The position numbers and the translations under genes were made by a program. Positions 5,800 through 50,100 of a stretch of DNA of 64,000 nucleotides are shown here, in pieces. Within the stretch, counting starts at the first letter, position 1. Each line of letters starts with the position of its first letter. The notes under the pieces were generated by a model. That model was not told the origin of the DNA. It saw nothing but the letters and a program-made list of their open reading frames with translations, and did no database searches. The DNA comes from Apostichopus japonicus. Lineage: Eukaryota; Echinodermata; Holothuroidea; Aspidochirotida; Stichopodidae. The stretch is taken from contig NC_092574.1 of NCBI RefSeq assembly GCF_037975245.1, positions 25,898,713 to 25,962,712 of the forward strand, written 5' to 3'.

Positions 5800-8170
5800 A
5801 TATACAAGCTAACTCACACATACTGAAACATGTAAAACTGGCAATGTTTTGGGGACTTTTTTAACCGCCAAATTCACATGACACACTTTTTTAGGTGTAC
5901 TGAAGATTATTTTTAAAGCTAGGAACGATTTCAGTACAGAAATAGTTATGCATTCTTCTTAAATTGATTTATGAAATAGTAAGAAAGAAAATTGTTCCTC
6001 AAGTTAATAACAATTATCGTCTTAGGAGCAATTATTATAATTCCGAATCATTTATGAAATAGAGCCCAGGTGACTTTGATCCGTGTCAGTTACATGTGAA
6101 CTTGTCTAACTTTTCACTGTATGATCTGGTGGGGGGGGGGGCTATAGGGGGCGGATGCCAGTGACACAAGAAGACTAAAACAAACACTAAACCTGTTCTC
6201 TACTTTATATCTTGCAACGATATAATTAACTCGTTTCTCTTAACTTGCAACGAGCGTTATTAAAGTAAAATAATGAAATAAAAATATAGAACTGACTTAC
6301 AACTAATTTACTCCCAGGAGAATCCTTAATTAATACCAAGTTTTCCCCAAAGATATAAAACAAAACATTAAACATATCCGATTAAAACACAAACAAACAC
6401 ACACCCACAAATGGTGTAATTAACCGCTTAATTAAGTAAATTGTTAACAGGATTCCTCTCTACTTCCAGAAAGTAGGCGTCAACGATCTCCTCAGAGTCG
6501 ATCTCAAAGTTAGTACAGTCTTTGAATATGCGTTTCTCTCTTCTGGGTTTTAAGTAATATAGCCACGATTATGGGCTCTGCTAATGAAAATAACATTTTG
6601 TGAAGATGATGCTCTCCCTTGAAATGGCTTTAGCGAATAAAAGCTATAAAAGGATAAATGTGTCGGTTTCCTCGTAAAAGAATGTACAGTATGTCGACAG
6701 AATGATAAAACCAAAACTACGGTATGGAATGTTTCCCCGAAAGGTAATTAGGGAGGTATAGTGAAGAATTTGATATGCATAGACTCCGGATGTGCGACCT
6801 GAATAATTTTCAGATGACATTGCAAAGGTCCTACCTGTAACGCGTAAAATTTGTCACAAGGGTTCTACTCGCGTAATGGGTAAGGTTGGCATGTTATATA
6901 CATTTTTGAGTAGCCAAAGAAGAACTTTATATCATAATACATAAAATATAAATGTTTCTTTTACGTCTTCTGCCATGCAAGCAGTTATTTTCGTTAAATA
7001 TATATTTCCTTTCCTTATTTTCTTTTAATTAAAAGCCAACTTACCATACCCCTACCAACATAATGGACTAACCTATAAGCTTCAGGTAAATGGACTATTG
7101 TATGAGTGGTTACCAATTTCTGTATCAAACACGACATGTTTTAACATTAAAAGACATGTTAACTACATAATGTTATGAACATTTACTAATTGAATATAGT
7201 ACGGTACCAAGTATAAATTTCATATTCCTTTGATAATTTTATTCTCAGTACCTTGACAAACAGTGCAGACTCTATGATTTTAGTCACAGCAGCCTTTTTG
7301 AGAAGCCATGGCCTAACGGTCGCTGGCCAAAGATTTGTACCAACGAAGTCTAAGGCTTTGAGTACAGCGTTTCTGTATGTTGCCTTTCGTGCTTACACGT
7401 TATCCTCTCCTATCCCACGATTTCCTTATTTCCCAGTCACCCATCCCATAATCTCCTTTCGTGTGACAGGTTGACGATACAAAACAGGCCAAGTAGACGA
7501 GGTCAATTAACCAAGAACAAGGTTTAATGAGAGAAACTTAAAAAGAAACGCGTTAATAGGAAAAAAAGTTAGAAATAAGACAGAATTATAAAAGAGAGAT
7601 GGAATGACATATGAAAATAAAACAATGTTATCCAGTCAACACCCTGGTTACAAGTGTAACCAGAATGATCCTATTATCCAACTGGTTGTAACCACATATA
7701 TCTCTTATGTCAACTGGTTGTAACCCGATTGCCAGAGAGTACGACTAGTGCCGGATTCACACCCTTTGGTGCCAAATAGCACAATATAATCTCCCCTCCC
7801 ACCCCAGCCCCTCCCCCGCCCCATCTTATGAGTTTTGCCGATACAAAAATATATAGTTGATATATCTTGCCTGTACGAGGAATGTGCATGGAGGCTCCTT
7901 GACCTTGGGGGTCATTGCGCCTGCTTAGGGGGGGGGAGGGGGGCACAGAACGTGGAGGGCCCTAGATTCACGACATGAAGGGAGTGATACAAGCTTACAA
8001 CTAAACGTAAATTGCAGCTTTCACAATATTCCAGCCCTGGGTTCTCTACAAGCATAAGGCTAAACATAAGTAATATAAATGATGAAACATGGATGTATAT
8101 GATACATATTATGCCTGAAACACAAGCCACTTTAAGACTTCTCAGCTAATGTTTCCGTTGAACTCTAGGG
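5800..8170. other. Intergenic, no gene seen
   Basis: AT-rich DNA downstream of gene A. It holds a poly(G) run at about 6130 and G-rich tracts near 7927, but no coding exon that I can support. It presumably includes the 3' UTR of gene A next to 8170. Confidence 0.5.
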
Positions 8171-8376
8171 TTATTTATTATCCATAGCAATGTTCTCATC
8201 CGTTCGATTCGACGAGACCTGATGTTTACCATGGGGCTTGATGACGTCACCGACATTCTCTTGGACAATTCCTTTCCTTCGGCGTCGAGATACTGTCGCC
8301 AATATACAATCTATGAATTCGAAAATGGTTACGATGCTAGCTCCACCGAATAGACCCATATATGCGCCAATGTCAC
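8171..8376 (-). CDS. Gene A exon 10 (TM2, tail, stop)
   Basis: Residues 404-471. SDIGAYMGLFGGAS carries the GAS selectivity filter; TM2 follows, then RRRR and a hydrophilic tail of about 35 residues that gene B lacks. Acceptor TTTCAG. The stop region reads AATAAATAA, so a poly(A) signal-like hexamer overlaps the last codons. Confidence 0.95.
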
Positions 8377-11300
8377 CTGAAATTGAAAGAACCACAAGGA
8401 TGGATAAAAATGGAAGACAAATGGAAAGGAATAAAACCGAAATGAGGAATTACAATGGTTTGCTATAATATAATAATTTCGTTTCGTTTAGTTTATTTGT
8501 TTTTTTTCACAACATATATACAACAAATGTAGCGAATAATGAGAGTTATGGAATGTGAAAGGAAGTGCATCAAGAAATCCCTGTGGGCTTATCTAGTGTT
8601 ACACTCCCTTTACATAGAGTACACAAATAACTTACAAAAAAGAATGAAGAAAAGAACTAAGACAAAGAGAGGCAAAAGAAATGAAGGAAAGAGGAACCTC
8701 AATCTCAGTATAAGTTGAAGTAAAATCTCTTTAATTTGTATTTAAACGAATTTCGAAAAGGCAGTGTGACCTGATATTAAGAAGCAAAGAATTCTATCTG
8801 ATGCTTGTACGATGTCGATGGCAGTGGCGGAGCTAGGGGTATTGGTCAGGGGGGCGAGAATGTTCTGTAGGGGCGCTTTCGACACTATCTAAGCAGAGCG
8901 CCACCACAGGTTGGCGCGGAGCGTACAGAAATTTTTTGAGTAAAGATACTCCCTAGATCGCCGGAAATGACCCTTTCCGGGCCTTGCTAATTTTCAGATA
9001 AACGAAGAATAAATAGGTGTCATCGCCATTTTGTCAGAAAATTACACCAACAAAATGTGACAAATGTCAATAGGTAGATGAGAGCGCAATAAAAAAGTCA
9101 ATAATCGCGAATAAGTAAAAAGTGGTGAAAAGCTGCAAAGGGCGCCAACGGTCCATATGAGTCCGTCAGGGGGGGGGAGGGGGGACATCCGCCCCCTGAC
9201 TATATCGACGCTCCGCCACTGGTCGATGGCTATATTTTCCTACATTGGTGTGAATGCGATTAGGGCGTAAACTTTGTATGTGTCGTGTGTTCTAATTGTG
9301 AATGGCATGGTTGTGAACAAGGAAATTGTCGAAAGCAGGTGGGACCTGTCCATAAATAGCTCTATAGGCAAATGTGACTACATATACATTTATTAAATCA
9401 GGGAGCTTGCGGATGTTAAGATCTTTGAAAAGTTTACTTCTATGTTCATTGCAATTGACAAATAAAACGTGTCTAATTGCTCTTTTTTGAAGAACAAAGA
9501 GTTTTTTTTCAGCATGTGTGACTGGTACCAGACAATACTAGTATGCAGTATGTAAACTGTGGTGCGATTAAAGTAAGATATAACGAACGCAAAATTCTCT
9601 TGGGTAAAACATGCTTAAGTTTTGAGAGAAAGCCACAGCCCTTAGGAGTTAAATAATGGACGTAGCTACTTACTGTTTAGCATAAAATACACACTGGAAC
9701 AAAAGAATCATGACAGCTGTTTTTAACCAGAAATATAAGCAACTCAAAAGAATCTTTGATTTCTAGTTCCATCTTTTCATTTGACCATTGTTATAGCACT
9801 AAGGTTCTTGCACTAATTTTGATGCACATATCAAGTGTAAACTTTATTCATAATATTTGAGGTTGGAATTACTAAGGTTTACAGAATTTGCAAAATGGAT
9901 GCACATATCAAATATTAACTTCAACTATCCTTTATTAACATTGTCCTGCATGCCGTTTAAAGGAACGTTGCAAGGTATGAAGAAGGCATATGGCTGCAGA
10001 GGGTGGAAATGTATAGCCATGCAAGCGCCGCTACACAGCCCTTTAATTATCACTAGCAAATTATGAAACGCCAAAATGCATGAAGTTCCGAAAGCCTATC
10101 CATGTTCAGGCGGACGCTATATATATTCACTGATATATGGCTGATGTAAATATAATGTGTTGCTACTATTAATGGACATATATACTCGGTATCATTTTAC
10201 AAACTTGAGCAAGGTTAGAGCGTCATTGTATAAGACGTATTGCAGAACCCTAAGATATTGAATATTGCACACTGCGCATACCCCGCGCTAACTGCAGAAA
10301 GCTAACAGCTAAAGAAAACAGAAAAACTAACAAATACTATGCTGATCTGTATACAAGGTAAGATACATGATATATGCATTATGTTGCTGTGTAAATACAT
10401 GATTCGTTAACAACAGCGGCACATATCCATACCAGCTACACATTAAGGCACGTTACCGACAAATGAGTAAACCAGTATGGACCCATGATCTTATACGGCA
10501 TGGGTATATCTCTCTGAACACATGCATATCCGATGACCGTTTCGGCGTTCAATATACAGAAGGGCAGTAGAGTGGATGGTTTTTTGGATGAATGGAGTTA
10601 CAAGATGTGATGGATTTTAAGTCACTTGAGAGGTGGACTCGAGATGAGAGTCAGAGATATTTCTATTTAGAAATAATGTAAAGATAGAATGAGTGGAAAC
10701 GCTCAAATAGATTGTCTTAAAATGAAAGAATGGACTAGTAGCAAAATTAACTTCAAGATTTTCAAATTTCGTTCACTTGTCACATAAGTATAATATACAT
10801 GTATGTTAGTTAAAAGACTTGCACAAGATGGCATCTCGAACATGTGTTCACTTAAGTAGCGTCCCCTATCATTTTTTAACTTTCCTTCCACATCCCCCCC
10901 CACCGTTCCTTGGGCCTTTCACCCCTACTTTAAAACACACATGCCATACCTTTTGTCATTCGTGACTTTCTCAGTCCTGAAGGAAACTCTCTAAAATTGT
11001 ACAGATTGAAAACATTCGATCCTAAACTTTTGATAGAATTCTATGTTGTGACGATTCACTAACGCTACGATTTTAATGGCGTATGATTGGTCATGAGGGT
11101 ATGAATTTAAAGAAACAAAGCCAAGAAATACTTGTATGCCGCTAATATCACACTTATAAATCAACATATGACTCAATTATTTCAACTGTGTAGGAAAAGT
11201 GACGCACATAAAGTATAACTTGTTCCAAAGTTACTCTCCAATTTCAATTCGCTATGGCTTAAATTTTAATCCGTAAAAAGATTAATATCATTTGATTTAT

Positions 11301-14300
11301 CTTCTAGAACGTCCGATGATATTTGTGACCATTGTTCTACAAAAAGGGAGGTCAGTTTAAATTGTAAAAGAATCATTATGTATGAACCGGGAGAGGAGAG
11401 GGGTGGAGGTGAGTGAAGAACTTACTCTGTAGGGCGAAGTAATCATAACTCGGGGTTTGTGACAGTTCTTCAATCCCAAGAACATCGAAAAATAAGTTCA
11501 ATTCGAGAAAATTTGATCTGAGGAATCAAAAGAGAAAATTTTAATAAAGACAGAAATTTGACTTAAAATTTCAAGCGTTCGATTTTAAGAGGGGGGGGGG
11601 GGGTAGAGGAGGGGGTAATTTAATACATATTGTCCTGAACAACATAGAGTGAAGTTTGTCAGTTAAGCATTTTCGTAGGCAACGAATGATATATGTTTCT
11701 TTTTTTTTCTTCTTTTTTTAATTCATGACGTAATGTAAAATATTAAACCAGCTGTTTGTGTTTTAAATGTAACGTTTCATTTTAAGGCAAAACATGAAAT
11801 AAAAATATTGTAAACTTTTATGCATAATTGATGATTTCAAATGTTTTAATGCTTTTAGATCATCTAAGGATCTTCATATTTATTTTCTAGTTTTTGTTTC
11901 GTCCTTGCCCTATAGAAAAAATCCAAAATATGTATTAAATTAGATATATCAAATATATATTAAGCTTACCGCAAGAAATCTGTTGTCTTATTTAAATTAT
12001 TTGCTATGTAGGTTGCTTCGAAATCTGAAGGCCATAGAGTGAACGATATTTTCATCTCATACGCCTCCTCCTTGCAAGGAAGGGAACACTCACACGATGA
12101 GCATAGATCCGTGATGTTATCTAATATGATAGTGACCGAAGTAACAAAGATCGTAATCTTCACATTGCATCATCACGCAATAAGACAATATAATATGTTA
12201 ATATATGCAATGGATAAAGAAGAAAAAGATGACCAATACACTGATTTCTAAAAGTTGTGACATGCACTGTAGTCATGAGGGAGTCCCATAACAACACCCT
12301 GCTGCAACGTGCTATATGTAATACCCTATAGTACTTCACTTCAGTATAAAAGCTATTGAAATTTATGGTGTCAAATTATGTCAACAAAATTCTCTGTTGA
12401 CCTGTTAAATTATATTCTAAAAATTGCGTGCCACAATTAATGTTTATCTATTCATACCAAATTGGTCACTTTCCAAGGCCGTCAGGGGGAAAACAAGAAA
12501 AGACAAGAAAAAAAGTCATGGAGTTCCATACCCTCCATGTGATAGTTGTTGGTTTGGTCTATCCTGGATGCAATTTGTATCAACAATAATTGATACCATT
12601 ACAATGACGATTTTTGAGTCCCCAAGTTTACTTCGACTAAAATAGATATACAAGTTTTCAAAAGGATTTTTTTTTTTTAAGGTTATTAAGTTTGAAATTA
12701 TATTTTCACACATTGAGGTGTATGTGTGTTATATGAGACAAGCGTATATGTCTCACAAAGAAAGAAAAAAATGCTTACAAGTTGAAACCTAACCACTATT
12801 ATATATGCTTACCAGGTATCCTACCATCAATATGTTAGATGTTAGCTTGGGCTACCATGCTTGTCACTTGAGAGAACAAAACATGTAAATAGCCTCCTAC
12901 CGTTACAGTTTTGAATTTTTGTGTCCCGTTTCACGAACGAACTTTTAACATTTCTTTCCTCTTTAGAATGAACCTGGGCACGAAAAACCAAACAACAGAA
13001 CGACTGATCCGCTCTCAACCCCAGCCCCCTTTACATCAAGACTGTGACTGTGTAATGATCGTGAGGAGTGTATTACGATTGCCCTACAAGGGGAAACATC
13101 ATGATCTCAGACAAAATGTCGAGACTTACACATATTATTAGTCCCTAAGTTTAGCCTGCTAAAATAGATATAAAACTTTTCAAAAGTATACATTTTTGTT
13201 GGTGAGGTTATTAAGTTTAAAAATCTTGTTTTCATAGATTGAGGTGTACTACGTGTGTTATATTATACAAGGGTATACCTCAATACCTAAATCTTTGAGA
13301 ACGTTGAGTGCCTACCAAGGCTGATTGTTTAGGATAGGAGTAATACTGCAGACCTTTGATTTCTGCAGCTTTTGAACGGACTAAGCGTATATCCATACAC
13401 ATATATATACGTATTATTCTCATTGTTGTATGTTTACCAATCCATGACGTCACGCCATCTTGAGCGTTTATAAGGAATGACGTAACAAGTACAGCGCCAG
13501 ATTTTAATATGCATCAAGGGGCACTGCATATATATTCAGTATTGGGTTTTAAACTTTTAAGTTTTAACGCTTCATCGATCTAAATATATGCAGAATATTA
13601 CTATTTTACAACTATTAATAAAGGCATTATCTTGCAACATTTTGCTTAACTTGGAAGAAAATGCAACTTACTTATTGCTGGGAAAACACATTCCAGAATT
13701 TCCCTTAAATTGCAGAGTTCTTCAGTACCTGTCAGTACCGAAGAAAAGAAAGCTTATAGGAAACAACACTGAAGCTGCAGTGAGAAAGTTTACCGTAGTT
13801 GGGTAATGAAGGAAATTCAGTTATTATGTGATTGCTTGACTGAAAAACATAATATGGGCATATGTGGAGAGTGTAATTGAGTGTGAATGCGTGAGGGGAA
13901 GGGGAGGTGTGGGTGGGTGGGTGGGTGGGTGAGGAGGTATCAGAAAAGGTGAGGAGTCTCGGGAACACGAGTGGAGATTTGTCAAGGCAAAAACGAAGGG
14001 GGGGGGGGGGTATTTTTCTGGATTTGGGATATACGGTATATTATATTTATTGTAGAAAGGATGTGATGGAGAAAGATGAGTTTTTCGTGAGAGTAATAGT
14101 TCATAGTAATCTGCTACATATCTTGAATATGCATAACCTGTATTTGCATAATCTGTTACATATGCATTCAATAGTTTTGTAATAAATTACACATTAACAT
14201 CTTCACTCGATCGTATCCTTACGAGACCGTATATATGTTCTCTCTCTCCTTTTTCAAAGATATTTGGAAGGGAAATGCTTGCTCTCGTCAATAAATATGC

Positions 14301-17300
14301 AATTTTTCTTAGAATATTCCAATAAATGTATGCCTATATAACTGTGATGAACTATATGTATGAATTGTGGCCTGCATACCTGGGAACTGATAGTATCGAC
14401 ATCCACAATACTTTGTGATACAGTCAGCTTGGCATTCATAAAAGCAGGCTTCAGCAGAATAACTGATTGAGTGTTCGAGTTTCTTATCGCCGACACAATT
14501 AGAACTAAACGGATAGGGCAAGTTTGTGCTCTGCAAGGAATGAAAATACAAAATTGCAACTTAAGATTTACTTTTAAATACCACTAATAGTCTCCTTAAT
14601 TCATATATCAGGGCTTCTCAGTTCGGCTCGCGAAAAATGTTGAAGTCTATTTCAGTCTAGCCCCCGAAAAAACGAAGAAGAAAAACACACAAACAAATAT
14701 TTCATTAATCGAGGATACGAGTGATTAGGCCACTAAGAATAGTATATCCATATACCTCGGCCTAGCCTGTAGATTGTTAATCTGACTATAGTGGCCCTAA
14801 CCAGGTCTTTTGCCTTGTCCCTTCAGAAAATTACTTGAGAAACCTTACATATTTAACATAAATTTACAACAAACGGAGCGACGGAACATCGTCAACATGA
14901 ATTCATTGATTCGACATTGATTGTAGGTACACATTATGTTATCTACTTTGTAACATCAACACGTCCCTGCACTGTCAGCGTTTCTGCATACTGTATTGCT
15001 CATCCGCGTACGGCTTTATAGGGCAGAACAGAACCCACACTCTTACACGGTCTATACTAGACACTTAAGTGATATTACGTAATTATTACTCTACATTTGC
15101 ATATAATCACACATTTTGCTTGGTGACCCCAATTTTCAACGTCATCATCTCGGTCCGGGTAACCCTCCAGTGAAGGATGCTATGGCCTGGGAGGGGGGGG
15201 GGGGGGTATATGGGGAGGATATATTTGTGGTCACATTTGTGGTAACTAATTAAGCGTCGTAAAAATAACTGCTGATTATAACTATTATTAAACTCACAGT
15301 AATATCAAATATATAATTGATTTATACCCCACGCTAGACCTACATTGATGTAACTTACATTATATGTGAACATATACCACACTTTATATGCTACTTATAT
15401 TGATATAACTTACATTAGCCTATATATGTACATAACACACATTATACTTACAGTGATATAACTTACATTATATTTGTACATAACACACATTATACTTACA
15501 GTGATATAACTTACATTATATGTGTACATAACACACATTATACTTACAGTGATATAACTTACATGATATGTGTACATAACACACACTATACTTACAGTGA
15601 TATAACTTACATTATATGTGTACATAACACACATTATACTTACAGTGATATAACTTACATTATATGTGTACATAACACACATTATACTTACAGTGATATA
15701 ACTTACATGATATGTGTACATAACACACACTATACTTACAGTGATATAACTTACATTATATGTGTACATAACACACATTATACTTACAATGATATAACTT
15801 ACATTATATGTGTATATAACGCACACTATACTTACAGTGATATAACTTATTCTGACAGATGTCTTGAAACCCGGGGAAGCAGAGATACCGAACTGACCGA
15901 CTAGAGGGAATTGTCCTTTAGGATGTACGAAGATCTAACAGGAAAAGACATGAACAAAAGAAAGGTACAAATAAGCATACATACTTAAAGGAAGTTAAAT
16001 ACCTCCATTACCACAACACGTTACCCCTGTATACATATACCCACCATCACTCTTCTCCTCCCACTCGTCTAACCTCCCCTCTACTTTCCAAGGCACATCC
16101 CCTCCCGCATGTTCATCTTTACAAATAATTCCACTACCAGAAAAGTTTGCTCAATGACGCACTATATTCCCCCTGCCTCTCCTCCTGTAAGATTTCATTT
16201 CTTTGGATTCAGTTGTAGGAACTCTTGACGTGAAATGAATGAATACCTTAAAGCCAGCACCCGTGTAATAACCCCAGAAATAGTCGTACTGCTCCGCCGA
16301 TAGTCTCAATCGCAGCCCTTGAGAACTTCCAGCTTCGGTAATCATTAACTCCGAATTAGAAATCGAGTTAAAGGTATAGCACACCTGCGTATGGAAGAAA
16401 CCAAAACACCTCCTATTATGAATTGGGGGGTTATAAAATGACAATTCTGAGGGAAAAAATAATATTGAAAATATTCCTCTAAAGTCCACTTTCTTTGAAG
16501 ATTTAAACAATAGAAGGCTCCTCTGACATAAATGTATATCTTGACGTTTCTTCACCGCTTATAGACTATTCGTATCTAGGCAAGACACGGAACGCCAAAA
16601 GGGCCACAGGAGATGATAATGATATTAGAATACATCATGTTAATATAAAGGTACTTTTGTATTACCACGTATGTAGACCGCCGCCAGTTCCTTTATACTA
16701 TCATCTTCAACTATCGATTAATATCTGGCAGTATTTCAGTAAACAAGTAGGACTTTTAATAATACCTTATATATAATGGAGAACAAACCCCAATAAACTA
16801 TAAGGGAAAGAATTAAGAGGATATTCCTTCGGCAAATGATTGTGCCAAGCTTATATAAATCACTCCTCGGGCTCCTATATTTCATGAAATAATAGAGTTT
16901 TAGGTCATTTAACAGGCAGCAAGATTTCTTTTAGCGTTTGCGCAATTGGAATCGGGTTTCCATGGAAACTTGTTTCATACCCCGAAATCGGTAATGACGG
17001 TGGTAAAGTTGTGCGCTCCACATGTTTCTTCCTGGTTCCATGTGCATTCTATTAACATATCATCTAGCTGGTGGGCCAGTTTTATGGCCACCTCCGTCAT
17101 GTTCAAGTAGTCATCCATATCGTGGAGATCCCAGTCAATATCAACTGAATCACTGGTGGACAGAGATGTTAGAACCTAGAAGTAAAAAAAAACATGTATT
17201 TAATAGAAAAGATGCAAGCATGCAGGTAATACTGGACTTTTCTTGCTATTTGATAAGCCTCCTGCGATGAACATGCGACGTATAGCCACATCCGAAAAAT

Positions 17301-20300
17301 AAACAGTTCGAAGTTAGCGGGCAAAATAGCCGATAAACCTTGGTCACTAACTGGACCAAACATTCGTAGATCCCTACACCACCCGCCCCATGTCTCGTCT
17401 CGAAGATATCATTATTGTAGCCAATGAACTAGATTTTAATGCTTTCGCAAAAAGACACGCAACTTTACTTTCCGTGTAAAACTCTTTCAGACTGGACATT
17501 CATACTTGAAATATGCATTGATAATATCCGTGTATGGATGGCAGAAAATCGATTTAGTACTAAACGATAGGAAAACAGAAGTGGTTTATTTCCACAGTAA
17601 ATTCAGAAAGGATAAGAAAGAAAAAAACATCATAACCAATTTCAGAGTCGGTATATGACTCATGTTAAACCAGTCTCCGTTGTCCGAAAATTTAGGAGTG
17701 CATTTCGATGAACTTTTCCATCTCTGGTCATGTTTCAACAATGTGCCAGTCTGCAACATACTCGTTGTACCGTATCGGTTTAACTCGTTAGCTTTTATAC
17801 CACAACAGCACAGAGAGATTGATTCGTGCATTTGTTACATCACACCTCAATTATTGTAATAGTTAACTGTATGGAACTTGAGCACCAGCAACTTGCACGT
17901 CTTTAAAGGTGGGATCGCTCGTAAATTCTGTACCTCCATGGTCCTTCACACCACCCGATTCAAAATATAATATTAATACTGCCCTCAACTGGTTCGTCGC
18001 TGTTGTCTCGTAATTTCTATTAGCAATCCCGTATTTACGGCTAGTAAGCAATAAACGGGTTTGGGTTACTAGAGCGGTGGCCTTGACGAAATTCCTGCAT
18101 AGCTTCTTGTCTGCGGCAGTGTCAGTGGTGTGTGTGTAGTGTGCATAGAAAATTCATATACTCGGCAGCACGTATGGTCACAGGTACTAGGAAGCTCAAA
18201 CTCATCACTCCCATATACTGGTTGATCTTCACTGGCTACCTGTCTCCGCACGGATTGAATTCAAGTCTCTAGTCATTACATACAAGATTATAAATGGCAC
18301 TGCTTCTCGATATAAATCTCAGCACTATGGTCAGTCGTGCGGCTCTTCCCGGGCATTGGCAGATTGCCAATCGTACCGGACAGAGGAACAGGAACAGTCT
18401 GTGGAGGTCCGGCTGGAGCCTAGCAGCTTCGTCCAGAAAACTTTTGGTGTACGATTGTTTGCTTACTTTGCACCAGATCTCTAGAATGCACTAACTAAAT
18501 GACATTAGGACAGCACCATCATTAATTGTGTTTAAATCACTTCTAAAACACACCTTTTTTGGAAACATTTTGCATTCGTGCATTATAGGGATCTTGTCAT
18601 GTTGTTTTTATTATTGTTTTAGTCATTTATATATTCTCTCAAGCACTTTCTGTACAACTTGTCAACGTCGACAATTTTTATCGCTGTTTTAATATTTTAT
18701 TTTACCGCTGTATCAACTTTATACTTAATGGTCAAGTGCTTCGAGATCATATTTTATTTAAGGTGCTATATAAGAATAAAATGATTATTAAAAATGAGTA
18801 TTATGTCACTATATATGGCAACTTTGTGGCGATGGAAATGTAACATAGGGTATCGCTGATATAAATGAAGCAACTGTACAAGAGGTGGTTATGTACGTGA
18901 TTGGGAATGAGGTGGACTAGGGTGGGTGTACACTGCTTAAAGGGGTGCGTATGATGTGTAAATGTATCTATTGAATTGATATCAGTATGACGATATATAG
19001 TTAGTAGTACATCGTCCATAAATTATGGAGAGAAATTTCCAACACTATAATTTACATTTCAGGTGGAACCCCCAAGCTCTTTCTCTCTCTCTCCACCTCT
19101 CTCCTCCTCTCTCCACCCCTCTCTCTCTGTCTTCTCTCCCTACCCGCACCCCAGCCTTACCCCTACTGACCCCACTCACCAAAAAAAGGTTTAAAATGTC
19201 GTTAAAATGAATTGTTTAATTTTAAGGAATTCGACAGAAAAATCTTTACCGAACAAAAGGTCCTGCGTAAGAATTTGATGTTCATGCTATTTGTGCTATG
19301 AAAATGTAATTTTTACTTACTTCTCGCAAAAGAGTATAATTCTGCAAATGTGATTTTCGAAATTGGTTGTAATTACAAATTGTGACGGCAGGGAATTCTA
19401 GATTATTGACATAGTTGAACATAACGGCTGTAGAAATTGGATACGAAAAGTATTTGGTCAATCCGTTGACAATTCCATAAGCGAGCCAGACAGCCAAGCA
19501 CACCAGCAAAATCAGCCAGCATATTCTGTAAATCAAAATAATTTAAAAAAGAGAGATAAATAATATAAAATAATTTTAAACTAATTCGTTAATACTGTAT
19601 CTCCAAGTTTATAATTAAACTCGGCAACAGAATGTTGACAATCATGTTTCGTTATTGTTACTATAAATTGGGTACTTTAATTGTTCGTTTTCCCTTTTTT
19701 TTTTACTTCCATTACAGAAAAAAAATGTCTTCGTTTCAAAATAACCAGACTGAGCATTCGTTTGAATTTTTTCTTTTATTATTGTCAAATTTTGTCGGTG
19801 GTGAATATTTACTTTTTCATGTTTTTTAAAATACCTGTATCTTTATGTAAGATAGATGAACACACTAAAAAGAATCATAGGATATGTTTTCCCATAGACG
19901 TAAAAAAAAAGAACAGTTTTAAGTTAAGATAATTAAATATTGAGAGCAACTGGGCCCCGGTTACATGGTAACCCGAGAATGAGAGCAGAAATAGCTGTAT
20001 ATGAATAATGGTTATAAAATGGTAATAATGCAGGTATAGAAACGAATATTCGGTTGATTCCATGGCAACCTACGAAATTATACATTGGCAAGTTAGAATA
20101 ACACTGTGGTCCGAGTATTAGATTATATAAGGGGCGGGGCTCCCTGACAACCGTTTCTTGTCGGGTAGGGGAAGTGGAGTTGGAACCTTCTAACACGGTG
20201 TAGATGACCGTTCGCTACGTACCGTGCAGTAAAGGGGCGGGGGGGGGGGGGCGTCCTGACAACCCGTTTCTTGTAGTGTAAGGGGTAAGACAGCATACAT

Positions 20301-21224
20301 TATAGCACGATGTACAAGCCCATTCGCTATATCGTACAGTCAGGGGAGGGGGGGGGGGGATCCGTCAAACAATTCTTGCAGGGTTAGGGGTAAGACAGTT
20401 TACCTTCTAGCACTATGTATATGCCCATTCGCTATATCTTAAAGTTAGGGGGGAGGGGGGTTGTTCCGACAACGATTCTTGTAGTGTTAGGGGTGAGACA
20501 TATATACCTTTTAGCACGATGTACATGCCCATTCGATACATGTATCGTAAAGTAAAGGAAGGAGGGGGGTGTCCGTCAAACGATTCTTGCAGGGTTAGGG
20601 GTAAGACAGTATACCTTCTAGCACGATGTATATGTCCATTCGCTATGCATCGTAAGGTTAGGGGTGGTCCCGACAACGATTCTTGCAGGGTTAGTGGTGA
20701 GACTATATGCCTTCTAGCACGATGTATATGCACATTCGCTATATCGTAAAGTTAGGGGGGAGGGTGGTCCCGACAAACGATTCTTGCAGGGTTAGGGGTG
20801 AGACAGTATACCTTCTAGCACGATGTATATGTCCATTCGCTATATCGTAAAGTAAGGGGGGTGGTCCCGACAACGATTCTTGCAGGGTTAGTGGTGAGAC
20901 TATATGCCTTCTAGCACGATGTATATGCACATTCGCTATATCGTAAAGTTAGGGGGGGGGTGGTCCCGACAAACGATTCTTGCAGGGTTAGTGGTGAGAC
21001 AGTATACCTTCTAGCACTAAGTACATGCCCATTCGTTATGTATCGTAAAGTTAGGGGGTCCCGACAAACGATTCTTGCAGGGTTAGGGGTAAGACAGTAT
21101 ACCTTCTAGCATGATGTATACGCCCATTTGCTACGTATCGTACGCCATGTAGAGTTGTTTCTTCAGCAAATCGGCTTGCCCTGGATTTGGTCACCTCATT
21201 GCGTTGTGGTCCCCGGTCGTTCAT
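8171..21224 (-). CDS. ASIC/BASIC-like DEG/ENaC sodium channel, gene A (10 exons)
   Basis: Trimeric, amiloride-type cation channel subunit in the plasma membrane. Exons, in order: 21224-21103, 19525-19321, 17175-16981, 16384-16247, 15934-15836, 14530-14380, 13728-13672, 12120-11970, 11517-11426, 8376-8171; total 1416 nt, 471 aa, with every phase joining correctly. Landmarks: HG gating motif at 26-27, TM1 about 43-65, FPAVTICN at 85-92, Cys-rich ectodomain about 110-400, TM2 with GGAS at 414-417, basic RRRR after TM2, and a cytoplasmic tail to 471. After TM1 it reads YFSYPIST, as in BASIC/ASIC5, not the His-His of ASIC1, so the ligand may not be protons. The start ATG is chosen because gene B has a matching N-terminus (PQ followed by FA-E-TTLHG). 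Transcription of the predicted exons is inferred. Confidence 0.93.
8822..9221. mobile_element. hAT-type MITE with 8-bp target duplication
   Basis: A 400-bp element with perfect 12-bp inverted ends CAGTGGCGGAGC / GCTCCGCCACTG, flanked by the direct repeat gtcgatgg at 8814-8821 and 9222-9229. It is the same family as 3005-3384. It lies in gene A intron 9. Confidence 0.93.
11426..11517 (-). CDS. Gene A exon 9 (pre-TM2)
   Basis: Residues 373-403 and one base, 92 nt as in gene B. It contains NFLELNLFFDVLGIEEL and YDYFALQ, the palm strand that leads into TM2. By eye 18 of 30 residues equal gene B. Acceptor CCTCAG, donor CAGA|GTAAGT. Confidence 0.92.
11970..12120 (-). CDS. Gene A exon 8 (Cys-rich)
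   Basis: Residues 323-372 plus two bases, 151 nt as in gene B. It has CSSCECSLPCKE, with the C-x-C-x(3)-C pattern, then ISFTLWPS. Acceptor ATATTAG, donor TTGCG|GTAAGC. Confidence 0.9.
12610..13300. repeat. Local duplication in gene A intron 7
   Basis: 12610-12760 and 13140-13285 are similar along their length (shared landmarks AAAATAGATATA, GGTTATTAAGTTT, ATTGAGGTGTA). Between them, 12965-13095 is a different repeat that also occurs at about 26325-26445. Confidence 0.65.
13672..13728 (-). CDS. Gene A exon 7 (57-nt small exon)
   Basis: Residues 304-322 with split codons at both ends. It contains LCNLREILECVFPA between acceptor CTGACAG and donor GTAAGT. It was found by homology of phase and length to gene B exon 7, and supplies the family's C-x(8)-C after the GCxC motif. 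It is easily missed by gene finders. Confidence 0.88.
14380..14530 (-). CDS. Gene A exon 6 (Cys-rich)
   Basis: Residues 254-303 plus one base. It contains NCVGDKK, SYSAEACFYECQADC and YCGCRYYQFP. The spaced cysteines match the thumb disulfide ladder of ASICs. Acceptor TTGCAG, donor CCAG|GTATGC, phase 1. Confidence 0.93.
15225..15300 (+). mobile_element. SINE tail fragment
   Basis: Matches the 3' tail of the SINE at 4204-4486 (AAGCGTCGTAAAAATAACTG region), in the opposite orientation. It is a truncated copy in gene A intron 5. Confidence 0.55.
15340..15846 (-). repeat. 48-bp minisatellite carrying the exon-5 splice donor
   Basis: About nine regular 48-bp units (15446-15846), plus degenerate ones to about 15340. 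On the minus strand each unit repeats the exon end AGTTATATCACT and donor GTAAGTATA, and holds a second GTAAGT 33 nt further on. As 48 is 16 codons, the exon frame stays open through the array to a stop at 15410-15412. Units with TGATATG at about 15568 and 15712 are 144 bp apart, hinting at a three-unit higher-order repeat. Confidence 0.95.
15836..15934 (-). CDS. Gene A exon 5
   Basis: Residues 221-253, 99 nt as in gene B. It contains IFVHPKGQFP and SPGFKTSVRIS, matching the palm-domain HxxxxxP and PGF motifs. It ends ATCACT|GTAAGT in phase 0. The end of this exon is the seed of the 48-bp array that follows it. Confidence 0.92.
16247..16384 (-). CDS. Gene A exon 4
   Basis: Residues 175-220. 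It starts VCYTFNS (the CYTFN motif) and includes SSQGLRLRLSAEQ (the G-GL-L-L motif), ending YTGAGFK. Acceptor CGCAG, donor AAG|GTATTC, both phase 0. Confidence 0.92.
16981..17175 (-). CDS. Gene A exon 3
   Basis: Residues 110-174. It contains HQLDDMLIECTWN, then C-G-HNFTTVITDFG, matching the family pattern L-x-x-C followed by NFT-x-V-x-T-x-F/YG. Acceptor TTCTAG, donor GGG|GTATGA, phase 0. Confidence 0.9.
17480..18796 (+). mobile_element. CR1/L2-like LINE 3' fragment, antisense in gene A intron 2
   Basis: On the plus strand, broken frames give reverse-transcriptase C-terminal pieces: IRVWMAENR, VSVVR-F-GVHFDE-like, LDLHWLPVSARIEFKSLV, TYKIINGTASRY, FGVRLFAYFAPDLWNAL-like and SKTHLF. It ends with GTGCTATATAAGAATAAAAT and an ATT-rich tail, the usual 3' end of CR1/L2-type elements. 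Stops, frameshifts and an interruption at about 17880-18150 make it dead. It lies opposite to the host gene. Confidence 0.85.
19321..19525 (-). CDS. Gene A exon 2 (TM1, FPAVT motif)
   Basis: Residues 41-109. It contains the hydrophobic TM1 segment, the post-TM1 YFSYP, and FPAVTICNYNQFR, the classic DEG/ENaC signature. Acceptor TTACAG, donor GAA|GTAAGT, phase 0. Confidence 0.93.
20130..21130 (-). repeat. About 100-bp minisatellite derived from exon 1 end and its donor
   Basis: About ten units (spacing roughly 94-113 bp) fill the start of intron 1. Read on the minus strand, each has a piece like TACGATATAGCGAATGGGCA, then TATACATCGTGCTAGAAG and GTATAC. This corresponds to the last codons of exon 1 (RYVANGRIHHARR) plus the donor, followed by about 55 nt of intron. 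Some copies keep the peptide ANGHIHRARR; some have GC in place of the GT donor (near 20707 and 20907). The first unit is the real exon edge at 21103. Confidence 0.9.
21103..21224 (-). CDS. Gene A exon 1 (start codon, HG motif)
   Basis: Encodes residues 1-40 plus two bases. It includes FAEETTLHGVRYV, where HG is the conserved gating pair. It ends GCTAGAAG before the donor GTATAC. The last 40 nt or so and the donor are the source of the tandem array in intron 1. Confidence 0.88.
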
Positions 21225-21436
21225 GAGGCCGTTACTTTCATGTGAACAGCTGCAATCTAGACAATTCACGTAAGATAAGTTTAAACATTAATGGATTAAA
21301 GTGGCATCGTATCATGGCCTCAAAATTTGGTATAAAACTACGGCAATGCTTTAAAATGGTAAACAAACAAACTAAAAGCTTTTGGAAATTCTCTGAGAGT
21401 TTTGTAAGAGTTGTTTCATTAATATTCATCGTTCTG

Positions 21437-41030: not shown

Positions 41031-44000
41031 AAACTTAAAAGAAAGACGTTGGGACCTGTAATAATAGATAACATTAATATGCATATATCGGTAACCGAAG
41101 AACACAGTACAAATGACAAACAAAGACAGCTGGGTCACACCACTGGAATGTTCATGCCTTCTGTGGTTTGTCCTTTATATCCATCTTCTTGTCAACATAT
41201 GTTAAGCTATAATATTTCTAAGTGTAATGCTTGATGAACGACATGTATTGTGACGTTAGAGAAATACCTAATTGTTATGTTTGTTATAGAAGACACTCTC
41301 CTGATGAAGGCACCACAGCGATGAAAGAAAGCGAAAGAAAAAAGGATGATAGTTCATTGACGGAAAAAGTTCAATGTGATGAAGGTGAGTACAGGTATAT
41401 AAAGACGGGTGTTCCTATATCAGCTCTGCATCGAATTACGAGAATATGATGGAAACTGAAGGAGGCACCCACCTGAGAGAAACACAGCTGGAAGTAAGTT
41501 CTCTTTCAATATGAGGCTAACCAACTCGAAATCAGTTTTGATTCCTTAAGCCGGATCTCGAAAGAGATACATATTTAATTTGTTTTTATTATAACATGAC
41601 CTGGATCTGGCGCAGATCCAGTGCTATGCACCCTCTTTTCAACAGGAAACACACACAGAGACACAAAAAGGGTTATATAAGCACATCCATGCATGTGGAC
41701 CTATTTATAAACCTTACAATTTATAACCTAAATATGCCACAGAATATATATTTTTTCCGGCTACAATTGTAGGACCAGTCTTAGCCACCCTCCCCTCCCC
41801 CTCCCACCCCCTCCTTACATGGTAGAAGGTTTCAAAGACCGCAAGGCCACACCCCTCATTTTACTTAAAATCCTGAGTCCGCCTCCGATGACATCATAAT
41901 ATTTGATATTAATCTTCAAAATAAAAACACAGGTCATATTTTTAATTAATTACTAAGTTATCTCACACCGTACACAATCAACATGTCATCGAAACGAAAG
42001 TGAAAATAGCCTCAAAACAAAGAAGTCTTGGATACTGAGTGGTCACACTTTATTATGGTCCATTTCATGAACGTTCTTGGTATGCAAGGAGAACCCAGCT
42101 CCGCGTATACCCACTCCCATGTACTCTCCTGCCCTCTCCACTCCTATTAACTTGTACCCACTTCCATTACCCCTTCCCGTTAGCGAGTGAATTCATGGGG
42201 TACACGTCAAAGGTAGTAATTGTACAATAGGTAAACGAAACGGCTGTAATGTGAGACAAATAATAACATAGCATGAATAAGGATGTAACAAATAATATGT
42301 AAACCGTTGCCCTATATACTTACAATGACATCACTAATTCTAAAGGAGGTCTCGAAACCCGGAGAAAATGAAACGCCGAGTTGGTCCACGAGAGGGAATT
42401 CCCCTTGTGGGTGCACGAATAACTGGAACGTAGAACGTGAAATATGTGTAAGAATCATTTAATGAATTAAATCTTTGCTGTATTCATGACCCTCTCCCCT
42501 CCCCTTCCACCCCATTTGGCCCATTAAACTTTCAGTGAGTTTGTATTGGTCAAAAGTTTCCATAAGTATATAGATATTTGACGATGATTTCATATCGAAT
42601 GTGGTTCTGGTTATAAAATGTAATTGTGGTTAGTAACAGCACAATCAAGTAATGCGAAATTACCGTTAAAAAGACACTAGATAAAATATAAGTTGTTGAC
42701 CAAATAAAGGTAGCTGTTTATTGAAACATGTGATACATGATTGCGATTAATTTCTAATTTCTAATTTTTTTTACAATGAAAGCGGTTAGCTGGCTGTGCT
42801 TGCCACACCATTTCGAAGGTCACGAAAAGCAGTGCATAATGCCTTTATTTCGTCATTAATTTGTTATCACTTTGTTATAATTATGGATTCCTAATATTTT
42901 ACAACTTTCTGCATCAGGAGATATACTTTAAATCGACCAATAAGTTGAGAGAAAGCAAAAAGGCGCTTTTTCTACTTCTCTAAAATTACTTTACTTTCGA
43001 AATAAGTTCCTACAACAATCAATAAATATCCTTATGACTATTACCACCTTTCCCAACACTCTCCCCGTCCCCTCCCCTCCCCTTGCCTTACCTTAAATCC
43101 AGCCGCAGTGTAGTATCCCCAATAATACTCATCCTGTTCTGCCGATAACCTAAGCCGCAATCCCTGGGAAGCTCCCGCCTGACTAACCGTCAGCCTTCTC
43201 CCAGAATCCCTATCTCCGTTGAAAGTGAAACAAATCTATGTTGAAAAATAAAATAATTAATACGAGCATCTCGGTTTCGAACAAGAATTAATCAACTGAG
43301 CCGCTATAGTGTAGCTAATATTCTTCTTGATATATACAAGGGTAGTATATATCGTGCCACTTCAACCCCCCCCCCCCCCGTAGCCTCGACTGGGAGCCGA
43401 AAGCCCCGGTTTTTCGGGGGCTCCCGTTTTTTGGGGAGCCTTCGCCACCTTGTACAGGGAGTCTCCCGTTTTTGGGGAGCCGTTTCGGGGACTCACGTTT
43501 TTTTGTGATTACGATATAATATGATGTCATCGTTATGTTGGGAATATCCCTCTGGAAGCCGCAGGTATCCGTTTTTTTCGGGGCCGTCTCCTGTTTCGGG
43601 CTGTTTCGGAAGCCTTCGTTTTAGCTTGTAAGAGTTATAAAGAGTTATATATATATAAATATATATATTACTCTAAAGCCCGGGTCACATCTGCGCGATT
43701 CAACACGCGATTCAACTCGCAATACAATTGAAGGTTGAATCGCGTAATCAACTTGTTGCGCAATAAAAGTTGCGCCGTCGATTTGGGTTGATTTGCAATA
43801 GAGCAATGTCCTAATCAGCGCAACTTCTCAGAAGCAACTTTTCTGATGCGCGTGATTTTAGTTGCGAGTTGAATCGCGTGTTGAATCGCGCGGATGTGAC
43901 CCGGGCTTTAGTAAATATATATATTATATAATTATATAAATATGTATATTACTCTTACATATATATAACTATTACTTTATATATAGCGATCATCGCTCAA

Positions 44001-44170: not shown

Positions 44171-47100
44171 CATAACGATGACATATATCATCTAGTCGCG
44201 TTACAACTCGTTTTGCTTCAATCTCTTTCATCTTGACTTACATTGGCACCGATGCACGGTATCTTCTTTACATCTAACACTCCATACGATAAGCGTTTTA
44301 GTTTAGTGCCGCTTGACAGTTACGTAAGTTATTTGGGACAGTTCACGAAGGAAAGTACATTCTGGATATTAATTAGTGCATTGGCAGTTCTTGCAACTAT
44401 TGCTGGTTTGGTACTATATGCGACTTATGTTAGAAACGGTATAGCGCTAGGATGATATAGCGTGTACGTGTATATACATTCCCCTCTGCAGTATGTTAAA
44501 CGCATGTTAAACGCATTTGATGTTAAACGCATTGGTAGGTCTTGCAACTATTGCTGGTTTGGTAACAAATTATGGCTTCTCTTTATTAATTTGGTGGAGG
44601 CTTCAGGGGATAATTTATTCCCAAAACGGGAGACTCCCAGTACAAGGTGACGAAGGCTCCCGAAAAATATATAAAAATATTTAATAAAAATAAATGAATA
44701 AACTGGAGCCAGTACAATGTGGCGAAGGCTGCCCAAAAAAAAACGGGAGCCCCCCCCCCCCAAACGGGAGCATTCGGCCCCAGTAGAGGCTCCCATGCAG
44801 GGGAGAGGGTTACGTGGCACGATATGTACTACTGCAGCTGCAACTCCCATCAACATCCATCTAAGATTGAATATTTTACAAGTCTTTTCTATATATAGTG
44901 TTTTATTTATGAGTAAACATTATCTAATTATGCACATTGGTGATGTAAAGGGAGTGACTGCCTTATTTTCTGTTATGTTATCCATTTGTTTTCACAACCT
45001 TCGTTTAAAAGACACTGCCCACAGATTCGTGGCCTAGGGCGAATTTTTGAAATATTTTATTGTCTTCTTTGAAAATAAGAACATCACATTATGACATTAT
45101 TCATATGATATATGTGGGTTTGTATAGTTAGGGGTTAACTTGTGAAGGGCTAAATAAGACATGTTGATACTCAACACTCTACGTCATAGTTTGCACATAT
45201 TTAAATGAGTTTCCCAGATTGATCAAAACTTCAAATGTGTATCTCTTGGAAACGAAAAGATCTTTTCAAAAGCTTTAACAGATTTTGAATAAGATTATCA
45301 CACACAACAAAATGTATTGCATATGGGGCAAATTGGCTATAGGCGTCCGTAGTACTTTAATCTGTTAAATAAAGATATTGATGAAGGTGAAATGATAAAG
45401 CTCGCGAAATCTCGATTAAAGACCTTCATCAAATGTTGCTTTCTAAAGGTCTTTAAATTCCAGACATGCAAGTTTCAGTTCATTTGACTTATGAAGCATG
45501 GCGCCTTCTAATGTGCATTTGGATAATTGAAAATACTTAAAGATCAGACACTGTGTATAGGCAGAATCAAAGATAGTCAAAACCAATCAAATTGTCTCGC
45601 TTGGATACTTATAATATAGGGCTTTTTTGTGTGTGTTATGTCTTTGTTTGTTTAGAAAGAGCAAGGACAATTAATGGATAAAAAACCAGTGTCCTTAAAG
45701 GCATTGAAGACTCGCCCCAAACAGCATGCCGCCATCTTTATAAAGTTAACTTTCTGTTGCTTGCAAGTGACATTTTGTTCGTGTCGCTACAAAATGCAGA
45801 CAGTAATGAAACGTGATACCTTGTTATCTTTAGCCGGACCTGAGATGTCCATTGCTGTATCGTTTGTACACTGACTGTGGGAATTGACCGCAGCTGTATG
45901 TACTGACTGTACACTAGTGTCTATAATTACCGACGGTAGCAAGCTGTGTGTGTATTTTCTGGGAACGATGGTGGTGTCTAACACTTCTATTACACCTCAT
46001 TCGAAGTTAGGTCAGATTACCGGCATTAGACGTTTCTTTTTGCGCGAGTCTTCACACCCTTTAATATCCAGCCTATACTGATGGTTTTATCAGTTAAAAA
46101 CTGGTAAAGGTGAGTACCCGTTAATCAGTTAAAACTGATCTGTGTTATAATTTCTTAACATATGTTACATTTATGGGCAGTTGCTACTGAGGACTTACAA
46201 ACAGAAAATACGTAGCACACAATCATATACGTGATTGACTGAATTAACCAGACTACTACTCTAAAGGTTTTCACCAACAATTTCGTCCACAGTGGATGAC
46301 ACTTTACTGCCAAACGCTTTAAATCTGCAATTCGAACCATCTTTACAATATACTTACTTTTCAAACCTATATTTGTTTAGACTCCTAACCAGTCATTAGT
46401 TGAAATAGTCTTGTTAAGACCTAGTATGAACAGCCTAGTGTACCTTTCTTTTTCACAAAGCTATTTTCCTGTATCTATTTGCTGTACTGCCTAGAGAAAG
46501 CCCCCCTGCAACGCTTCGATTGATACTAGGAACAGATCATAGGGAATGTATAATACAATGTGCCAGCACATTCATGATAGGCAGAAACTGACTCTGAAGC
46601 AGGTATATAGTTTGCACGCGAGCAAAAGAGTGTTATAAATGACTTTGCCAAGACTATGGTTGAAACAGCCCTTGAATAATGAATTCGTCTGTTAGTAGTT
46701 TTTTTTTCACAGTAGTATCTGGTGACTAGTCTAACATATGTTACTGTGTTGTAACACACTTCAGTTTATACTGATTAACGGTTGTCTCTTATTCACAGTA
46801 CAAACTGATCAAGCCATGTACATTGAGTACACAGTAGCATCTGCTGACATGTATAACATGTGTTACAGTGTTATAACACACTTCAGTTTATACTGATTAA
46901 CGGTTGTCTCTTATTCACAGTACAAACTGATCAAGCCATGTACATTGAGTACACAGTAGCATCTGCTGACATGTATAACATGTGTTACAGTGTTATAACA
47001 CACTTCAGTTTATACTGATTAACGGTTGTCTCTTATTCACAGTACAAACTGATCAAGCCATGTACATTGAGTACACAGTAGCATCTGCTGACATGTATAA

Positions 47101-50100
47101 CATGTGTTACAGTGTTATAACACACTTCAGTTTATACTGATTAACGGTTGTCTCTTATTCACAGTACAAACTGATCAAGCCATGTACATTGAGTACACAG
47201 TAGCAGCTGCTGACATGTATAACATGTGTTACAGTGTTATAACACACTTCAGTTTATACTGATTAACGGTTGTCTCTTATTCACAGTACAAACTGACCAA
47301 GCCATGTACATTGGGTGTAAGATCACGTGTAAGATCCATTGTATGTTCTATCGACTAAGGACCAATATCCAGCAAAATATATCATATCAATCACTATTTA
47401 GACATTTTGCTTTGTTTGTTTTCGTTTTGACTTTCCCCCTTTATTTTGTTTGTCTATTTCTCTGACGCGGGATTGGCACTCAGAAGAGACAGCACGCTGT
47501 ATATATATCCTGTAACCTTCCGGGAACACACACTATAGTTTCATTCGCTACAATCCAGAAAACAGACAAGAAACGAGAGGAATTTGTAGTTACTCGTCTG
47601 CCTTTGATTGAATAATTTACGGATTCTACTTATGACGGTTATATCATAACCTATCATTTGTACAGACTATGACACCTCCACTTAGAACTGTGTTAAGTAC
47701 CCCTCACAATGCCCTCCCGACCCCCCCCCCCTCCCCTTTCATCAGAATAGAGGAAATTCCGGGTTGAATTGTGTACCAGTTTCTTACTAATCTTGAGAAT
47801 GTCAGATCGATTATTTTCCTGAGAATCGTGACAATTTTAGTTTGCATTTTATGGATAAACTATAAATCGGAATTGATCGTCAAATGTCGACATCTTTATA
47901 GAATTATAGTTAACAGAGAAATGGGGGTCGGTATACTCCACCCCCTTATCGACTGCATAAACAAAATGAAAAGAAGTTCTTAGCACATGTACCATTGCAC
48001 GTCTACAATTCTATAGAAATATTCTTTGTGAGGAGGCTCGGACCGTCCCAACCCTACATGGGAGTCGACCACAACGACAACAGGGCCATATCCCTCCCCT
48101 TTAAAATCATGGATCCTTTACCCCTGTTTACAGAAGAATTATTATCAGCACAGGCGTTTTCTTCATGAAAGGCGGTGGGCGGGGTGGGGCGTGTTTTTTT
48201 TTTCTTCCTCGATAGACGTAACTATTTGATACCAACCCCGAAATCAGTGATAGTAGTAGTAAAGTTCTGGGGTCCACATGCTTCTCCTCTGTTCCATGTA
48301 CAAGACAGTAACATATCCTCTAGTTGATGACCTGATGTGACGGCCACCTCGGTCATATTCCAATGATTATCATTGTACAGAGAATCATGGTAGTCCCAGT
48401 CAATATCAACGCCTTGCTTGACGACGAGAGCCAGTAGAATCTACAGAGAACGAGCAAGAAGAGAAGCAGAAGACACTGAATTGGTCAAAGAAGGTACATA
48501 TAATTAAAAAATACATATGAACAACATTTGAACATTTGAAAGTACAAATACGACACAATGATAGGATACAACAGTTATATATGGAGTGGAGTGTTAGCTC
48601 AGTGGTTTACACCGGTGCCTTTCAATCATAAGGTCCCCGGTTCGAGTCACTCCCAGATTAATGTATGTCGTCCAGTTACAGAGTTGTTGACAATTGACAA
48701 TTCATAATCATGGACGTTAAATATGAATGTGAGAGACTGACTTCGGTCAGCTTGCGGCCTTGATAAGCCAATTAGGCTTCTTCGCGAGTTCCTGCTTGCA
48801 GGAGGATCTAATATACATACATATATAACCTAAACTATATAACTAAATATAGTAAATAAGTAATACTTAAAAGGTCTTCGCTAAACATATATAAACATCA
48901 CATTTAGCATTTCAAAAAGGGAACTAAATATACTAGTAATACGTTAATAATTTCGAGGGATATCTCGGTACTAAGTTGAGAAAGTTTGTGCTAACGTATA
49001 GGCTAAGATGATTAACTTTGGAGACATACACAACCATCATATTTCGCAAGGTAACATAGAGTTTTGTAAAGAACAACTCCCCGCAAACATCTTCGCCTGG
49101 GAAATGTCCTATAGTTTGCAAGTCTTGCCAGGGAGTTATCATTCTGTGATTCTAGTATATGTCATTTATAAAGCCATTAAAGGTTCTTAAACCTGTTACT
49201 TTCTCTCAAGTTGTTTCTTTTTTCATATTTTCGAGATAGAATGGCAAATGTTGGCACTGAAACCGATTCCATTATCAGGTCGTGTTTAGACTTTCAGTAA
49301 CCAATAGATTCAGCATTTATAAAACCCACATAAACATTGTAATACAAAGCACATGTGGCTCAATGATATCAATATTTAGATTTGATCAAGTCAAGAGCCT
49401 ATCGCGTCATGCACATTAAATATGTGATATCTTCCGAATGGAATAATATTTTTTCTTAGCTCTTTTGTGACAGCCTTAAATTGATCATAGCGGTTATCTT
49501 TATCCTATATAGATATTATAATATTTGGGTTTGTGTGTTTCCTTTAAGAAATATATACATATGATGTATGACACAACCGATTTCGCATCCGTCATAGCCT
49601 ATAGATATAGACTCGAAGAGGGACCGAGAATTTGATACAGTGCAGTGTTCATTACACAAGGAGCTGTATAGCATAACGTTATACATGGAAGAAGGGGGGG
49701 GGGGGAATGTAAATCCATTTTTCCTCCCGACTGTGCAGACGACACCACTTTCAACGCGCTTGTTAGTTTCAAATTTATCATGATATTTGACTCACCTGTT
49801 GAAATACAGGATCATAAGTCTCCAGTTTAGATCTTCGAAATTGATTATAATTACAAAAGGTGACAGCTGGAAAGTCGATGGTTTTCACGTAGTTAAACTC
49901 GACAACCGTGGAAACAGGATAAGTGAAGTACTTTCTGATGCCAGACATAATGCCAAAAACGAGCCAAATGGCCATAGATATCAATAGAATGAACCATAGT
50001 AACCTGCAAAACAATTCAACAATTTATTACTCTGTTGGCTTAAATATATAAACACACATTAATTCGTCAGTTTTCAAGCTGGCTGAAGCACAGAATTTTA

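Follow-up and report, generated by a model that had tools for sequence, protein, structure and literature searches.

A 48-bp minisatellite multiplying the exon 5 splice donor of an ASIC-type channel gene in Apostichopus japonicus

Gene A and the array at the end of exon 5

The stretch of DNA analysed here (hereafter the window, 64 kb in full) contains gene A, an ASIC-type DEG/ENaC gene on the minus strand, whose exons span positions 21224 to 8171. Exon 1 (21103..21224, with the ATG at 21224) ends in GCTAGAAG and is followed by the donor GTATAC at 21102, and the further exons, all on the minus strand, were placed at 19321..19525 (exon 2, TM1), 16981..17175 (exon 3), 16247..16384 (exon 4), 15836..15934 (exon 5), 14380..14530 (exon 6), 13664..13731 (exon 7, ends approximate), 11970..12120 (exon 8), 11426..11517 (exon 9) and 8171..8376 (exon 10, TM2 and the stop codon). 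Exon 5 is 99 nt long, is in phase 0 at both ends, has a homologous exon in the paralogues and ends in ...ATAAGTTATATCACT; its phase-0 partner, exon 6, is entered through the acceptor TTGCAG/AGCACAAAC. When ten pieces were searched with the PF00858 (ASC) profile, six matched at E≤0.01, five of these six lying above the cut-off, and the piece with exon 5 and three others gave no match. The matches fell in exons and in order, which places gene A among the DEG/ENaC genes.

The NCBI protein model that fits the neighbouring copy of the gene (P0001, named ASIC1C-like) also carries PF00858, and in exons 3, 6 and 10 it is closer to that copy than to gene A. P0001 resembles ASIC-type channels in sequence (E 5.6e-63 to ASIC2, 6l6p_A) and in fold: its AlphaFold model (mean pLDDT 77.2, pTM 0.69) matched ASIC1 structures, with a Foldseek E of 5.7e-37 to human ASIC1a (9e4a_A). 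The assignment in the earlier note, a DEG/ENaC gene with the array at exon 5, agrees with both the profile matches and the fold, and the protein is an ordinary one of its kind if the first donor of exon 5 is used. The exon 5/6 junction, between T267 and S268 of P0001, is close to where a predicted strand (258-269) ends, in a stretch of high confidence (mean pLDDT 92-96 over residues 251-270), and aligns between residues 280 and 281 of the ASIC1 chain 6ave_A. The junction thus falls just before the LPPP turn, in the region known as palm/thumb, where the earlier note had put it. Judged from the model, a hydrophobic insert of at least 11 residues at this place would likely harm the channel.

The native 5' splice site GTAAGTATA (15827..15835, minus strand), whose homologue serves as the donor in P0001, belongs to a 48-bp minisatellite of 8.9 copies and 96% matches that was delimited with TRF at 15421..15849 on the minus strand. 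Each unit comprises the last 14 nt of exon 5, the donor and 34 nt of intron 5, so that GTAAGTATA recurs nine times with a step of 48 (15443..15835, minus strand; starts at 15835, 15787, 15739, 15691, 15643, 15595, 15547, 15499 and 15451). Inside the units the exonic ATAAGT has become GTAAGT, a second and weaker donor per unit, of which there are eight, again with a step of 48 (15461..15802, minus strand; starts from 15802 down to 15466). Pairing energies, calculated with what we take to be the 5' end of U1, were equal among the nine main sites (-7.3 kcal/mol) and ranged from -5.4 to -5.5 kcal/mol in the internal ones. On re-reading of the letters, the positions given for both series in the earlier note were exact, and all 17 donors are, as it held, in phase 0, in an exon 5 frame that stays open to the TAA at 15412-15410 (15410..15412, minus strand), the first in-frame stop downstream of the exon. 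Two GTAAGT sites come on top of its count, at 15413 (frame-shifting) and at 15358 (past the stop).

Spacing between successive donors alternates between 33 and 15 nt, and units 6-8 repeat units 3-5 with 1 mismatch in 144. Decayed distal units follow at 15341..15420 on the minus strand, with ATAAGTAGC and GTAGGTCTA at the would-be donor places; TRF rows of longer period reach 15341, and decayed pieces continue by eye to about 15281. The array as such exceeds chance.

Origin of the array and arrays at other junctions

In four paralogues (B, L028, L034 and L039) exon 5 ends at the homologous place and lacks the 48-bp array, the ends in the last three having been set by eye. In paralogue B, which lies in the window, exon 5 (42324..42443, minus strand, upstream end approximate) ends AGAATTAGTGATGTCATT/GTAAGTATATAG with no array, to be compared with AGAATAAGTTATATCACT/GTAAGTATAG in gene A, and GTAAGTATA itself is found at the exon 5 junction of both B and L028. 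A short AT-rich run (16-bp x 2.8) was seen beside the junction of L028. Since the paralogues without the array share the exon end, this end and its donor are older than the array, which arose as copies of the native junction; the unit thus spans a splice junction that is homologous in exon end and donor to that of array-free B, and the proposal that a minisatellite multiplies the native donor is borne out.

A second copy of gene A lies 47 kb away (C14:25854000-25880000, L009-L011, against 8000-21300 of the window) and is 97-98% identical in exons and introns. It carries the same nine and eight donor sites with the unit variants in the same order, and differs from gene A at 2 positions in 555 nt of the exon 5 array and its edge. 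From this agreement the array would be older than the gene duplication, or would have been homogenised since. The two copies, which could in principle be haplotypes placed in tandem instead of a tandem duplicate and lend themselves to comparison in either case, differ by 2-3% and are equal in copy number (nine main sites each), so the copy-number polymorphism suggested in the earlier note was not seen in the single comparison possible. Exon 6 and its flanks (14100-14700) differ by 5-7% between gene A and L009, with 13 differences in the 151 nt of exon 6, whereas in the remaining 300-nt segments of 12600-19700 the difference is 0-3%. Exon 6 and its flanks may have undergone gene conversion or be under relaxed constraint.

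A second minisatellite at a donor junction was found at exon 1 of gene A (20242..21142, minus strand; unit mostly 95-108 bp). Its unit takes in some 40 nt from the end of exon 1, followed by the donor and some 60 nt of intron 1, and the homologous exon 1 end of paralogue B has no array. Junction copies number 10 in gene A and 16 in the duplicate (L010 205-1760), and some of them have GC instead of GT donors. Read on from exon 1, the frame of gene A closes at a stop 16 codons downstream of the donor; that of the duplicate runs open for 100 codons beyond exon 1 and crosses two more junction copies, an observation that counts against taking such copies as passengers. Another DEG/ENaC gene, L040, has an array on the acceptor side (6010-7545; C9:25440009-25441544), in which a 34-bp unit, made up of roughly 12 nt before and 22 nt after the intron/exon junction, is present in 45 copies with many stops, and in a third, L044 (8084-8252; C14:14.65 Mb, minus strand), the acceptor and the start of exon 2 occur in about three copies of 62 bp. 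Junction multiplication is thus recurrent among these DEG/ENaC genes, and the other arrays, at exon 1 of gene A and in L040, are not bound to frame. Within intron 3 of paralogue B (minus strand), five near-identical 122-bp repeats were also noted on the plus strand at 46708-47313 of the window, each with an acceptor-like TTATTCACAG.

Whether junctions attract arrays was examined at exon edges of 84 exon matches from 23 loci, leaving aside 5 donor edges, with control points taken from the same loci. Arrays lay at 4 of 163 exon edges and at 38 of 1000 random non-exonic points (P 0.50), so no enrichment was found in these loci; with L005, L006 and L038, which had been dropped for overlap with other loci, the counts were 4/171 and 50/1000 (26 loci, P 0.17). 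L040 had been chosen for its array and the window given for one, by which both counts are raised. The edges were placed automatically near the ends of tblastn matches, and the edge of gene A exon 5 is consequently an array copy and not the native donor. In a smaller test of array placement, on 36 hand-set exons of five loci, an exon edge was crossed by 3 of the 12 arrays, where 0.98 would be expected (P 0.066); a 60 bp overlap cut lowered the expectation to 0.39 (P 0.005), that cut having been chosen afterwards and the sample including L040. A special seeding of minisatellites at junctions was rejected on the wider edge test.

Reading frame, donor strength and donor use

The open frame of the array was compared with null models. 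In a given frame, 42% of 48-nt stretches of the window contain no stop, and the corresponding value was 37% for units shuffled with both donors fixed and 18% for fully shuffled units. One period in three is divisible by 3, as 48 is. Given these expectations, and given that the other junction arrays break the frame, frame-keeping of the exon 5 array is unremarkable and selection on frame is not needed to explain it. The unit variants also show no sign of coding constraint: 5 of the 6 are nonsynonymous, where all single changes would be 111 nonsynonymous, 26 synonymous and 7 stop. On the other hand, three observations count against reading the copies as passengers, namely that the array copies equal the native donor in U1 pairing, that none of the 6 variable unit positions falls within the 15 donor positions (P 0.09), and that neither gene copy has lost any of the 17 donors.

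Six other donors of gene A gave U1 pairing energies from -5.4 to -8.2 kcal/mol (exon 6 donor, -7.2), a range that takes in the nine main sites, and among GT sites sampled from the window about 3% attain -7. A blocking of donors by RNA hairpins was rejected, since the folding energies of one, two and three units were ordinary (z -0.23, -0.15 and +0.58), with no special fold, and the first donor (fully unpaired, 0.040) is no more open than the other 18 GTAAGT sites (0.008 to 0.159). No AG/GT steps, as for recursive splicing or acceptor use, were seen by eye inside the array.

With regard to donor use, P0001 joins ISYIT directly to STNLPPP, that is, the first donor to exon 6; it is the one member examined of a 6-member sequence cluster, in which another isoform could differ. 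Searches of 5.8 billion proteins for the repeat peptide of the array (5484 and 3019 word-sharing candidates) returned no protein at E≤10 in a database that lists one protein per 90% cluster and holds predicted proteins only. Of 18 relatives aligned across the exon 5/6 site, 14 are without an insert and P0002 has one; P0014 shows a small number of additional residues where its alignment is poor, and in P0007 and P0008 the part beyond the site is missing. The P0002 model, from contig 1,385,864 of a different A. japonicus assembly, is weak and exits the exon at the first of the internal array donors: it reads ISYIT-KRIVFYVCALYYTYN-STN, and the insert aligns to 15850-15803, ending exactly at the donor at 15802. 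In P0002 a K-R after ISYIT leaves no GT at the first donor, and the exit is the next in-phase donor; exon 6 is out of frame, and the insert exceeds the length expected from the array by 4 residues. Earlier A. japonicus assemblies were built from Illumina and PacBio CLR reads, according to Table 1 of PMC10344927, and P0002 presumably belongs to one of them.

Interpretation of the array and its meaning

A literature search for arrays at junctions gave as its nearest find the work of De Grassi and Ciccarelli (2009; PMC2812944) on human segmental duplicates, and in the text available to us the genes concerned are recent duplicates, whose minisatellite units likewise lie across exon/intron boundaries and can carry splice sites along. 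Duplicated genes with tandem repeats at such boundaries are therefore already known in human. Repeat number in those cases, as far as that text goes, differs between paralogues, which holds for the exon 1 array of gene A (10 against 16) but not for the exon 5 array (9 against 9). The human transcripts are described as showing new or alternative introns, whereas the exon 5 array is known from DNA and predicted proteins, and it is set apart from the cases described there by its large series of 17 donors, every one of them in phase. Tandem alternative splice sites (TASS) likewise consist of several sites of the same type in close succession, one of which usually dominates, in the account available in PMC8055015. 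TASS clusters as defined there require successive sites within 30 nt, however, and the alternation of 33 and 15 nt in the exon 5 array exceeds this; the exon 5 series also differs in being caused by a minisatellite. The repeats of Sparus myostatin-2 (PMC3045353) were considered as a parallel and set aside, as they are intronic and no amplified donor was found in the text available.

We consider it probable that the array is a neutral minisatellite born at the junction and carried as intron, with the first donor in use. A tandem duplication on the exon 5/intron 5 junction would have given rise to the minisatellite and included 14 nt of exon end together with the native donor. Exon 5 and its first donor would stay in use, and the other eight main donors and the eight internal ones would be passengers of the intron, in frame because a period of 48 nt is, by accident, a multiple of 3 without a stop codon. 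The array donors may yield rare in-frame noise isoforms that are unmarked for nonsense-mediated decay. The neutrality of the array and the dominance of the first donor are inferred.

Competition among the donors is a possible, though rather improbable, alternative, in which the spliceosome would choose among 17 U1-binding sites and produce a ladder of in-frame isoforms (+11, +16, +27, +32 ... residues) or lose the correct product. Nine sites with identical U1 pairing would favour it. So would a two-donor reporter in which, according to the part of PMC1877881 available, suppression of the intron-proximal site was seen with 27 of the 32 elements tested and with only 1 of the 8 inserts used as neutral controls, so that a downstream donor is not ignored by default. 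The insert of P0002, ISYIT-KRIVFYVCALYYTYN, ends where the donor at 15802 would cut; against this, the model stems from another assembly, with exon 6 out of frame and 4 residues too many, the model that fits the HiFi assembly (P0001) uses the first donor, and the repeat peptide found no protein at E≤10. The same P0002 looks like a case of spare donors, its exit lying at the next in-phase donor where the first has no GT, and the copies would then be in-phase backups by which loss of the first donor is made harmless. We give this only a very slight chance, as exon 6 of P0002 is frameshifted, a sequencing error in an earlier assembly of the kind tabulated in PMC10344927 may account for the change, and backup capacity would be a by-product and not a selected function.

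The length-tunable protein segment proposed in the earlier note, with a copy number that varies between individuals and an added segment that is functional, is likewise very improbable. Phase 0 at all 17 sites in an open frame speaks for it, and the exon 1 array (10 against 16 copies) indicates that arrays at this locus can change length. But the exon 5 array has nine main sites in both copies, amino acids change freely between units with no coding constraint, the NCBI model uses the first donor, the search for the repeat peptide was negative at E≤10, and the place just before LPPP would be a poor one for a hydrophobic insert. A bolder version, in which the spliceosome reads the array, up to 17 donors yield a ladder of ASIC isoforms that keep the frame, repeat number sets the possible lengths, the exon 1 array acts as a second, mostly out-of-frame switch, and the two minisatellites together tune channel dosage and length, seems to us quite improbable. 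An assembly error in the array, which the earlier note had named as able to overturn its claim, is unlikely, since the published assembly of 671.60 Mb rests on 64x HiFi reads of mean 14.7 kb that outspan the array (PMC10344927, in the text available) and the second gene copy carries a matching array; as an explanation of the whole it has next to no probability.

As a minisatellite born at a junction, the exon 5 array is a natural multi-copy test of 5' splice-site choice, with nine identical donors in near-equal flanks. Its isoforms would be in frame and so not hidden by nonsense-mediated decay, and exon 1 of gene A provides a control whose frame closes. If the first donor always wins, position and the upstream exon decide, not the donor sequence. 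For the gene family, the edge counts suggest that a few percent of junctions lie in tandem repeats, no oftener than other DNA of the same loci. With junctions captured at such a rate, their multiplication may continually supply material from which introns and exons can change.
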